This document shows positions 3,245 through 61,086 of a stretch of DNA of 64,000 bases, in pieces. Made by a program: the position numbers and the translations under genes. Position 1 is the first letter of the stretch; each line of letters begins with the position of its first letter. Where the stretch lies: positions 1 to 64,000 of the forward strand of contig PXQV01000014.1 of the NCBI GenBank assembly GCA_003021175.1, in the 5' to 3' direction. The DNA is from Halobacteriales archaeon QH_7_66_36. GTDB lineage: Archaea; Halobacteriota; Halobacteria; Halobacteriales; Haloarculaceae. Under the pieces are notes generated by a model. That model ran no database searches. It worked only from the letters and a program-made list of their open reading frames with translations, and was not told the DNA's origin.

Positions 3245-4720
3245 TCAGTCCGCCTGAATACCCTCGAACACGACGGCCGTCTTCTCGTCGGTATCCTGTG
3301 TCGTGACCGCGCTCACGCCGACCGTGAGCACGAGTCCGAGCGCCATCCCGACGACGGCAGCGGGCCAGCCGAGATACGTGTCCGGGACGGCGGGGACGAA
3401 GACGGCCGCGAGATAGAACAGTTGCGGCAGTCCGAGGCCCGCGTACATCCCCGCGCGGGTCGTCTGAAGCCAGTAGAGCGCGACGACGACAGGGAGCGCG
3501 AGCTGTGCGAAGCCGCCGAAGGCCGTGTTGCCGATCTCGACGAGCGTGCCCGGCGCGTACAGCGACGCGACGAAGGAGAGCGTCGCGAAGACGGCGACGC
3601 CGCCGCGTGCGAGCAGCGTCTCGCGGGCGGGTTGCGAGTCGTGGTCTGCACCCCGGAGTGGTCGATAGAGGTCGCGGGTCAGATACGACGCGCCCGACAG
3701 CAGCATTGAGTCGGAGGAGGACATCATCGCGGCGAGCGCGCCGGCGATGACCAGCGACGCGAACCACGTCGGCGTGTATGTCCGCAGAAGCACGGGTAAG
3801 ACGCTCTCGCCCTCGGGCACGGTCACGCCGAGACCGGCGGCCCACGCGCCGAGCATGAACGCCGGGACGAACAGCAGGAGCACCAACACCGGCCACAGCG
3901 CGAACGTCCGCTGTAACACCTGCTTCGAGCGCGCGGCGAAGAACCGCTGATTGATCTGGGGGAACATCGTCACGCCGAACGCGATGTACGCGGCGGTGCC
4001 GAGCACGAACTGCGGGGTGTACGCCCCGCCGCCGAGCGCGAGATACTCGGGATTCGACTCGGCGAGCGCGCGCGTCGCAGCGGCAGGCCCGCCGACCGCC
4101 GAGAGTATCCACGCGAGCGCCACCCAGACCAGGCCGAGCATGAACAGCCCTTGGAGGGTGTCGGTCCACGCGACGCCGCGCATCCCGCTGGCGACGACGT
4201 AGAGGATCATGAGCAGCGTGATGGCTCCCGCCCCGACCCACAGCGGGACGGCCCCGCCGGTCAGCCCCGCGAGCGCGAGCCCGGCTCCCTTCTGCTGGAG
4301 CATCACGTACGGAAACAGCCAGAACAGCGAGACACCGGCGACGAACATCCGGAGGCCCGTCGAGCCGAACCGGTCGCCCAGCAGTTCGCCCAGCGTGACG
4401 TAGCCGCCGGAGCGGCCGACGAGCCACTGCTTGTAGCCGACGACGTACCAGAGGACGGCGAACAGCACGCCGTCCATCAGCCCCATCACGAGTATCCACT
4501 CCGGCCCCAGCGCGTAGACCGTGTCCGGCCCGCCGAAGAAGGTGTACGCCGACAGCAACGTCGCGAAGGTCGTGAACAGCAGGACGACGGTGCCGAGCGT
4601 GCGGCCCGCGAGATAGTAATCCTCGGCGGTGCGCTCTGCCACGCGGTAGGCGACGAGGCCGACGGCCAACGCGACGGCGAGATAGCCGCCGACAACCCCG
4701 AGTTGCACGGCGAGGCTCAC
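3245..4720 (-). CDS. Sodium:solute symporter (SSS family)
   Basis: 491 residues of alternating hydrophobic helices, about 13 membrane segments. It begins with GTG at 4720 (VSLAVQLGVVGGYLAVALAV), which overlaps the stop of the upstream DUF3311 gene as GTGA. Family features visible are the N-terminal DYYLAGRTLG stretch and FTTFATLLSAYTFFGGP. It should import a small organic solute with Na+. The DUF3311-SSS pairing resembles the YhdT-PanF arrangement of pantothenate-type permeases, but the substrate is not readable from sequence. A longer GC-rich upstream extension in the same frame is rejected because it lies over DUF3311. Confidence 0.85.
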   Translation of the reverse strand: MSLAVQLGVVGGYLAVALAVGLVAYRVAERTAEDYYLAGRTLGTVVLLFTTFATLLSAYTFFGGPDTVYALGPEWILVMGLMDGVLFAVLWYVVGYKQWLVGRSGGYVTLGELLGDRFGSTGLRMFVAGVSLFWLFPYVMLQQKGAGLALAGLTGGAVPLWVGAGAITLLMILYVVASGMRGVAWTDTLQGLFMLGLVWVALAWILSAVGGPAAATRALAESNPEYLALGGGAYTPQFVLGTAAYIAFGVTMFPQINQRFFAARSKQVLQRTFALWPVLVLLLFVPAFMLGAWAAGLGVTVPEGESVLPVLLRTYTPTWFASLVIAGALAAMMSSSDSMLLSGASYLTRDLYRPLRGADHDSQPARETLLARGGVAVFATLSFVASLYAPGTLVEIGNTAFGGFAQLALPVVVALYWLQTTRAGMYAGLGLPQLFYLAAVFVPAVPDTYLGWPAAVVGMALGLVLTVGVSAVTTQDTDEKTAVVFEGIQAD

Positions 4721-55356: not shown

Positions 55357-57060
55357 TCACTTCGCCTCTCGTTCATCTTCGGCAGCGGTTCCAGAGGCGG
55401 TCTCGGCGCGCTCGTATGGGTCGTCGGAACTGTCCCCGAACATCGCGTCGAACACCTTCCGCTCGGCGGTGCGGAGGTGCTGCGTGAACGTCGAGGGTGT
55501 AATATCGAAGCTGTCCGCCAGATCCTGCGCGCTGCTCTCGCGGGGCCACCCGAAGTAGCCGCCAGAGTAGGCCGCCTCCAGCGCGTTCCGCTGTTTCTCC
55601 GTCAGCCGTTCTTCGACCGCAGACCGACCGGCCGAGACGCCGGCGTCCGTCTGCTGGACCTTGCGTTGCGCGATGATCGAGACGTCGGACGCGTGGTCCT
55701 GCACGCGTTCGATGAGTCGTCGCTTGTCGCGTCCCGGCGGGAACTCGACGACGAACCGAAACCGGCCGTCGATGATCGAAGCAGAGGTGACGCGGCCGCC
55801 GTGGGTCGCGGCCGCCTCGGCGAGTTCACCGACCGCCGGACTGGTGAGTTCGAACTCGACCGTCCGGTCCTCGGCAGAGAGGATGCGAACGTCGTCGGTG
55901 CCGTCGGCTCGTTCGGCCGCGTTACGGAAGGTCTCGGGGTCGATGCCCTCGCTCTCTCCGTAGGCGACCAGCGAGCCGTCGTTGCGGATGAGACTCTCGA
56001 ACTCGACGGCCGGTGTCTGGTTGGTCGGGAGCGCGATCAGGTCGTCGACGATGTCGTCGATGCCGAAGGTGAGTTCGAGCACCTGATCGCTCACCAGCGC
56101 GTCCTTGCGTTCGAGCGCCGCGAACGCGTGGCCGATGACGTCGCCCAGCCGGGAGAGAATCTCGATCTCCGGTGCCGAGAAGGCGTTCGGCGACGCGGCG
56201 TAGATGTTCAATACGCGGTAGAGGTGGCCCTCGTACGCGACCGGCACCGCCGCGCAGGAGTGGTAGTCGCGCTCGATTGCTTCCTCGCGCCACGGTTCGA
56301 ACGTCGAGTCGGACTGTACGTCCTGCATCACCTGCACCTCGTGGGTCCGGACCGCCCGACCACCCGGTCCCTGTCCGGTTTCCTCGTCGCCGACGGTCAC
56401 CTCTATCTCGTCGAGATAGCCGTCTTCGACGCCGGCCGCGACCTTGGGCGTGATGCGGCCACTGCTGTGATCGACGGCACCGATCCAAGCGAACCGGTAC
56501 GCGTCGGTGTCGGCGACCCGTTCACACACGGCGCGTTCGAGTTCCTGCTGTGTCGATGTCGTGATGACCGCGTGCGTGATCTCTTGCGTGATTCTGTTGA
56601 GGTTGTTGAGCGCCCGTAGCTGTTCGAGCTGTCGGACACGCTCGCGCTCCTGTCGGTTCCGGTCGATGGCGTGGTGGATCGAGCGCACCAGCAGTTCGCT
56701 GGACACCTCGCCCTTCACCAGATAATCCTGTGCGCCGCGCTGGACCGCTTCGGTGCCGACCGACTCGTCGCGCAGTCCCGTGAGGACGACGATGGGGACG
56801 TACTCCGTCGCTTCGACCACCGTTTCGAGCGTGTCGATGCCCGTGCTCTCCGGCAATCCGAGGTCGAGGAGGATCACGTCGATGTCCCCCTCGTCCGAGC
56901 GGTCGAGGCCGTCCGAGAGCCGCGACGCGTGGTGTAGCTGTTGGTCGTCGGTCGCGACCCGCTCCAGCAATCCTTCCGTCTGTCCGAGCATCTCCTCGAT
57001 CAGCCGTGCGTCACCGGGGTTGTCCTCGATCAGGAGGATGTCGAGCGCGTCGGCAGTCAT
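55357..57060 (-). CDS. Receiver-GAF-Bat helix-turn-helix regulator
   Basis: 567 residues. Response-regulator receiver at 1-125 (LDILLIEDNPGDARLIEEML, phospho-Asp in IDVILLDLGLPES, Lys in DYLVKGEV). GAF domain about 165-315 (VCERVADTDAYRFAWIGAVD, HSCAAVPVAYEGHLYRVLNI). Bacterio-opsin-activator (Bat) domain about 370-480, then a C-terminal HTH_10 (LTEKQRNALEAAYSGGYFGW, DLADSFDITPSTFTQHLRTA). A cytosolic signal-dependent transcription factor. Its ATG overlaps the stop of a shrunken response-regulator gene, so it is the last gene of a degenerate signalling operon. Confidence 0.88.
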   Translation of the reverse strand: MTADALDILLIEDNPGDARLIEEMLGQTEGLLERVATDDQQLHHASRLSDGLDRSDEGDIDVILLDLGLPESTGIDTLETVVEATEYVPIVVLTGLRDESVGTEAVQRGAQDYLVKGEVSSELLVRSIHHAIDRNRQERERVRQLEQLRALNNLNRITQEITHAVITTSTQQELERAVCERVADTDAYRFAWIGAVDHSSGRITPKVAAGVEDGYLDEIEVTVGDEETGQGPGGRAVRTHEVQVMQDVQSDSTFEPWREEAIERDYHSCAAVPVAYEGHLYRVLNIYAASPNAFSAPEIEILSRLGDVIGHAFAALERKDALVSDQVLELTFGIDDIVDDLIALPTNQTPAVEFESLIRNDGSLVAYGESEGIDPETFRNAAERADGTDDVRILSAEDRTVEFELTSPAVGELAEAAATHGGRVTSASIIDGRFRFVVEFPPGRDKRRLIERVQDHASDVSIIAQRKVQQTDAGVSAGRSAVEERLTEKQRNALEAAYSGGYFGWPRESSAQDLADSFDITPSTFTQHLRTAERKVFDAMFGDSSDDPYERAETASGTAAEDEREAK

Positions 57061-57269
57061 CGCTTCACCTCCTCCGGCGGGAGCCGGACCGCGTCGAGCC
57101 AGAACGACTTGAATCGCCTGACGGCCTCGATGAACTCGTCGGGATCGACCGGCTTCGTCAGATACGCGTTGGCGTCGAGCTTGAACGCCCCCTTCGTGAG
57201 CCGAACGTCGCCGGCGTTGTCGACGAGCAGGATGTCGACAAACTCACCGGCGGTAGGCGCGTCACTCAT
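57057..57269 (-). pseudogene. Response-regulator receiver with an internal in-frame deletion
   Basis: 70 residues from ATG 57269. Residues 11-30 are the first strand and helix of a receiver (VDILLVDNAGDVRLTKGAFK; full-length family VEDNPGDVRLT). Residues 31-70 are the receiver C-terminus (LDANAYLTKPVDPDEFIEAV ... FWLDAVRLPPEE). The intervening stretch of about 80 residues, including the phospho-accepting Asp strand, is missing. The join is between K30 and L31 (about 57179). One acidic residue of the metal site is also lost. It cannot be phosphorylated. The open frame and operon overlaps are preserved. Confidence 0.7.
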
Positions 57270-57546
57270 CTGTCTCACCCACCGCTGGCAGCGTGAAGCA
57301 ACCGACTGTCCAGCCGATGATCCGCGGATACGCAGACGGGTCGATCAACGCCCTTCGCAGTCGGTCGCCGCCGGCGAGAATGATGATGCCGGGCGCACCC
57401 AAAAGGAGAAACTGGACGACGGCCTCTCGGGCTAGATCGCCGTTCCGCAGGGTGAGCGCGGTCCAGCCAACCGCGAACAGCACGTGTGTGCCGCCAAACA
57501 GTCCGGCAGCGCCGACTGTCGAGACGGCACGTCGCCAGGAGGCCAT
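57262..57546 (-). pseudogene. Membrane histidine kinase with its catalytic core deleted
   Basis: 94 residues. Residues 1-82 are two to three membrane helices of the haloarchaeal sensor-kinase N-terminus (VGAAGLFGGTHVLFAVGWTA, AVVQFLLLGAPGIIILAGGD, SAYPRIIGWTVG). After Cys83 it jumps to FTLPAVGETDE, which looks like the last strand of a HATPase domain (TFxxTLP) at a kinase C-terminus. Sensor, HisKA and ATPase domains are absent. The stop overlaps the ATG of the shortened receiver gene. Alternatively it is simply a small membrane protein; the FTLP tail is the argument against that. Confidence 0.55.
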
Positions 57547-57715
57547 ACAGCCGGAAACGCTCTATCTGAAATTATAGTTTGGGGGTGTGAACTTTCCACG
57601 ACGCATCGCCGTCCGTCGGCAGCGGTACCGACGCGCCGTGACTCCCTGTCTGTCAAATCGGGCGAACGCCGCGCACCCCCACCTACTTTTAACTAACCGT
57701 TTCCAATTTTGGATA

Positions 57716-60438: not shown

Positions 60439-61086
60439 TTAGTGGCCGCCGATGACCGCACCCAGATCCTCGTGTGAGAGGTCGTCGACCGTGTCCACGA
60501 GGTCCGTGTTGAGGTCGTCGTACTCGCGCCGTAGCTCCTCGTACGCTTCCGACGACTCCAGTTCGGCGTCGGTCATGTACTTCTCCAGCAGCGCGATCTT
60601 CCGCGCGACGACGAACTGTCGTTCACGCGGGTGCCGAACTCCGCCCGCTGGACCAGCCGAGCGACGAAGTCACGGAGCGTCTCGGCGTCGACCGGCTTAC
60701 ACAGATACTCGTCGAAGCCGAGATTTACCAAGCGGTTCGAGGCGAATGCCAAGGGGCTTGCCCCCGAGGCACTTCACTACGTCGTCTGTTGGTTCGACGG
60801 CAGTGACCATCGCGATGCGCACGTCCGTCTCGGAGCTACGCATCTCGGCGAGGACATCGTCGCCCGATGCGTCGGGCATGCGCCGGTCGAGGAGGACGAC
60901 GTCGATCGAGTCGTCGAACACGTCGAGTGCCTCCGTTGCGTTACGAGCAGTCACTACCCGGTGTGCTTTCGAGAGCCATCCCCCGTACAGCTCTCTGAGT
61001 CGCTCCTTGTCCTCGACGAGGAGCACGGTCGGCTTATCGCCGGACTCTACCCTCGCTGCATCCCCCCGTGTGATTTCCCCGCACAT
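60439..61086 (-). pseudogene. HalX-type response regulator with frameshifts
   Basis: From ATG 61086 the receiver reads normally: KPTVLLVEDKERLRELYGGW, phospho-Asp in DVVLLDRRMPDASGDDVLAE and RIAMVTAVEPTDDVV. About 60 bases of unrelated-looking sequence follow. A shifted frame then resumes at GFDEYLCKPVDAETLRDFVA (conserved Lys). A second shift near 60625 resumes the HalX helix QFVVARKIALLEKYMTDAEL and ELRREYDDLNTDLVDTVDDL to TAA 60439. As written the product would end at 60697 after about 129 residues, without the HalX domain. It is either a pseudogene or contains base errors. Confidence 0.65.

Follow-up and report, generated by a model that had tools for sequence, protein, structure and literature searches.

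A two-component operon in the haloarchaeal DNA studied here has very probably decayed in sequence, the kinase first and the stand-alone receiver later, with the downstream regulator kept. The genes lie in a stretch of 64,000 nucleotides from Halobacteriales archaeon QH_7_66_36 (the window). The eroded pair is a product of ordinary gene erosion and not a pair of new mini-proteins, because related archaea have repeatedly lost the kinase part. An initial annotation had described both genes as internally deleted, in frame and with their overlaps retained, and the ORFs and overlaps are present as described (Table 1). G005, to which the table refers, belongs to the same genus as the window and is apparently the MAG Halobacteriales archaeon QS_9_67_17 (contig PXSB01000054.1).

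Table 1. Features of the eroded operon, in window coordinates
Feature	Position	Strand	Details and basis
Intact regulator, Response_reg-GAF-BAT-HTH_10	55357..57060	-	567 aa; Pfam; 94% aa identity to G005; dN/dS 0.28
ATGA overlap, receiver stop / BAT-type regulator start	57057..57060	-	Sequence
Receiver remnant	57057..57269	-	70 aa from ATG; residues 1-31 (without codon 17) + residues 114-153; join 57179/57180
Kinase remnant	57262..57546	-	94 aa; membrane N-terminus (~residues 1-83) + tail FTLPAVGETDE; join near 57297
Leader 5' of kinase start, TATA-like AACTATAATTTC	57547..57590	-	Sequence + alignment; similar in G005; putative promoter

The 94-aa ORF consists of the membrane N-terminus of a kinase joined to FTLPAVGETDE, its last ~11 residues. 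Long kinase frames of other haloarchaea begin with sequences that match its N-terminus at ~33-43% identity, and some of these frames also end in a similar tail (e.g., GTTFSFTLPAADDAVE). FTLPAVGETDE likewise matches the kinase end that precedes the same receiver in relatives (STFSFTLPAVGDDDE in G104 and STFTFTLPAAGESDE in G061). Because the N-terminus matches long kinase starts and the tail matches the end of the operon kinase, the ORF is, to judge from its sequence, a HisKA/HATPase kinase without everything between membrane start and tail. These matches bear out the view that the ORF is what is left of a kinase, and not an unrelated, complete membrane protein. The ORF descends by sequence from a kinase and has lost the HisKA and HATPase_c domains of one: a Pfam search with it returned zero families, and the window upstream of the receiver gave no match to a 260-aa HisKA/HATPase query. 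A full-length operon was found in relatives as kinase, receiver and regulator (e.g., G088, G094, and G104), although in none of them with this kinase N-terminus; in all the other genomes searched, no kinase with an N-terminus of the 94-aa type was found ahead of this receiver.

The receiver remnant overlaps the 94-aa ORF by 8 nt (57262-57269); read from an alternative GTG it starts at 57278 and encodes 73 aa. Relative to the intact 153-aa receiver of G005 it lacks 246 bp at 57179/57180, which correspond to residues 32-113, in agreement with the earlier description of a receiver without its middle, phospho-Asp strand included. Alignment with G005 reveals a second loss, of the 3 bp of codon 17. 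Pfam Response_reg matches the remnant over the C-terminal 41 positions only (71-111 of 111, E 0.0019, below the cutoff), so the full Response_reg domain with phospho-Asp that marks a CheY-like stand-alone receiver is absent. Of the residues that are invariant in the receivers of 69 relatives, three are affected: E17 is missing, and P20 and E28 differ. The join at 57179/57180 has no repeat at its ends and a microhomology of 0, and microhomology was rejected as the origin of the deletion since there is none. The deletion is found in the window genome only, i.e., in one genome, and none of the other 69 loci holds a comparable receiver fragment.

The order of the two losses can be read from G005, whose kinase remnant has the same join as that of the window (75% aa identity). 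The G005 copy carries the disabling lesions of a pseudogene, a +1 frameshift directly behind the start codon and an in-frame TGA, and the broken remnant adjoins a complete 153-aa receiver. In the shifted frame the ATG opens a 96-aa ORF that stops 5 nt before the receiver start. Because the join is common to G005, where the receiver is intact, the kinase deletion predates the divergence of the window species from G005, and the receiver deletion is later. At the thresholds used, no regulator or receiver was found in the same-genus genomes G001-G004, and these genomes were rejected as a source of the ancestral operon.

Substitutions between the window and G005 set the three genes apart. The kinase remnant has a dN/dS of 1.04 (1.20 without the overlap, bootstrap 0.58-3.3), and its changes at codon positions 1/2/3 number 12/12/10, the neutral pattern expected of a pseudogene. 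The regulator has a dN/dS of 0.28 (0.19-0.43), with 18/18/53 changes at the three positions. The kinase remnant evolves neutrally, and the receiver-GAF-BAT-HTH_10 gene is constrained. For the shared parts of the receiver dN/dS is 0.25, a value that comes from few changes, has a bootstrap interval reaching 1.0 and mixes in the G005 branch with its intact receiver.

A wider survey of Halobacteriales started from regulator orthologues, which 98 of 392 order-level genomes contain at E <= 1e-120; upstream regions were taken for 60 of the 98 and for the family members. Of eighty named loci, most match the receiver domain alone, come from distant organisms and were left out of the comparison. In the 69 loci besides the window, 137-153 of the 153 receiver residues are covered. 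The upstream kinase core, by contrast with this kept receiver, is complete in just 20 of the 69 tree rows; in 17 it is partial and in 32, the window included, undetected. Undetected here means that one 260-aa query gave no tblastn match, and some of these loci may have other kinase types; one of the partial cases, L210, runs off the end of its contig. On a quick tree built from the receiver and the regulator start, the label of intact or decayed kinase changes 11 times, and at least three of the changes are forced by well-supported branches. The tree label alone cannot separate kinase gain from loss, and it is the kinase relics of the partial cases that show loss. In G068 and G070 a 16-residue kinase tail, GSTFSFTPHSEGMTNE, is all that remains, behind a thiolase-like gene, and in G069 HisKA is kept and most of HATPase is gone. 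Kinase loss ahead of this receiver recurs across Halobacteriales. A limited literature search on archaeal kinase pseudogenes accompanied by orphan regulators yielded no relevant report, and on that search the recurrent loss in this operon may be unreported so far; gene decay as such is an ordinary kind of event.

The thiolase-like gene, now ahead of the kinase tail and an intact receiver, occupies ~3774-4014 of locus L145 (G070) and ~3610-4030 of L146 (G068). In the G068 spacer, a piece of its end appears to be duplicated.

The downstream regulator is complete, with Response_reg, GAF, BAT and HTH_10 of the 567-aa gene each above its Pfam cutoff, the domain set of a BAT-type regulator. Its start overlaps the receiver stop in 55 of 70 loci (ATGA in 41, TGATG or TAATG in 14), and in the other 15 the boundary has no overlap. 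Of 14 overlapping gene pairs tested in Haloferax volcanii and E. coli, 13 proved to be strictly coupled in translation (PMC6728339). E-stop endings retained where the receiver begins were considered as a sign of coupling and rejected, as the ATGAGTGA start itself makes a -1 frame stop.

These observations are best accommodated by sequential decay. Three genes made up the original haloarchaeal operon: a kinase, a stand-alone receiver and a regulator of the receiver-GAF-BAT-HTH_10 type. Before the window species and G005 separated, the kinase lost its middle and was then free to drift; the shared join, the neutral dN/dS and the G005 lesions (frameshift and TGA) show this. Later, and in the window genome only, the 246 bp with the phospho-Asp core and one further codon disappeared from the stand-alone receiver. 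The BAT-type regulator remained under purifying selection. Two features of the window count against decay: the 94-aa ORF retains a start codon and an uninterrupted frame, and the deletions are all in frame. The dN/dS of 0.25 for the shared receiver parts also counts against it, with the reservations given above, as does the presence of the receiver deletion in a single genome. We infer that the surviving receiver deletions may be in frame partly by chance and partly through selection for coupled translation of the regulator. Frameshifting deletions in the receiver would be polar, because the regulator start overlaps the receiver stop and translation in the receiver frame would help the regulator. 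Against this coupling step stands the receiver of G005, which persists behind a broken kinase frame.

The coupling idea can be carried further, to remnants kept as translated leader ORFs whose peptides are irrelevant and whose frame is selected, since ribosome passage to the overlaps starts the regulator. We consider this possible but not probable. The ATGA that the window retains, the prevalence of stop-start overlap at this boundary, the in-frame nature of both receiver losses and the strict coupling of overlapping pairs in Haloferax volcanii (PMC6728339) all speak for it. However, two in-frame losses have a chance of ~1/9 without selection, 15 of the 70 loci lack an overlap at the boundary, and G005 has kept its receiver despite a frameshift and a stop in the kinase. 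The shifted ORF of G005 is of little help here, since a G+C content like this one makes open frames common. A broader version, in which leader ORFs feed ribosomes to the BAT-type regulator, coupling channels the decay, and a receiver-BAT pair that repeatedly outlives its kinase answers to other kinases, is a tentative suggestion that we find rather doubtful.

The initial annotation had held that two parallel deletions are too unlikely for decay. This argument finds no support, as the deletions date from different times, the kinase join occurs in G005 beside an intact receiver, and kinase loss recurs. It had offered instead functional mini-proteins, a small membrane peptide and a dominant-negative receiver fragment, and the open frames with starts in the window and the resemblance of the receiver ends to G005 would fit such products. 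For the kinase remnant the proposal is contradicted by neutral evolution and by the G005 lesions; for the receiver remnant, which lacks residues 32-113, has lost or changed three invariant residues and has no like fragment at the other loci, it is unlikely, and taken as a whole we regard it as very improbable. Equally remote is a collapse or misassembly of full-length genes. The receiver deletion is indeed known from one genome, but a separate genome record carries the kinase join in a diverged copy, the receiver join lacks the repeat or microhomology at its ends, and the retained codons beside it have diverged at invariant sites too. Sequential decay thus remains the reading that we prefer.

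A second response-regulator gene, of the receiver-HalX type, lies 3.5 kb off (60573-61086, minus strand) and is damaged in the window lineage only. An insertion of 49 bp and a deletion of 1 bp break its frame, and the G005 copy is an intact ORF. The insertion (~60726-60774, minus strand) holds a GGGGGCAAGCCCC hairpin, and copies of it occur on another contig as a 22-bp exact match (G000:C3:137305-137326) and a 47-bp match at 96% (G000:C3:137556-137602), ~250 bp apart. A small mobile repeat may have left the insertion as its footprint, or the insertion may be the end of such a repeat. HATPase_c matches number 19 in G000, 12-39 across the same genus and 19 in G005, a 67%-complete genome; the kinase count of G000 is low to middle for the genus, with no extreme kinase loss. 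The best HATPase_c match of the genome (G000:C12:53579-54349) immediately precedes a receiver that shares 45% identity with that of G005, and the same pair is present in G005 (contig C37). The two could form a kinase-receiver pair that is paralogous and intact.

The value of the case lies in the pattern, in which the kinase of this haloarchaeal operon has been lost several times and the receiver and BAT-type regulator persist. Their persistence points to regulators rewired to other inputs. The operon also provides a natural setting in which to ask whether translational coupling influences which deletions are retained.

Bat-type regulators of the form REC-(PAS)-GAF-BAT-HTH_10 are described in a census of archaeal two-component systems, and the intact downstream gene of the window has the same domain architecture; the passages searched of that census describe no decay of an adjacent kinase or receiver (PMC5847659). 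The haloarchaeal operon in which a kinase and a stand-alone REC precede REC-GAF-BAT-HTH_10 (e.g., G088, G094, and G104) resembles the window in gene order, overlaps, the families of receiver and regulator, and the kinase tail. It differs in that the kinase and stand-alone receiver of the window are internally deleted and the regulator alone is whole. Another parallel is seen in orphan receiver-BAT pairs that are accompanied by kinase relics (G068, G070, G069, and many loci at order level), where, as in the window, the kinase is lost or fragmentary and the regulator is kept. Those pairs retain an intact stand-alone receiver, whereas in the window the receiver is deleted as well.
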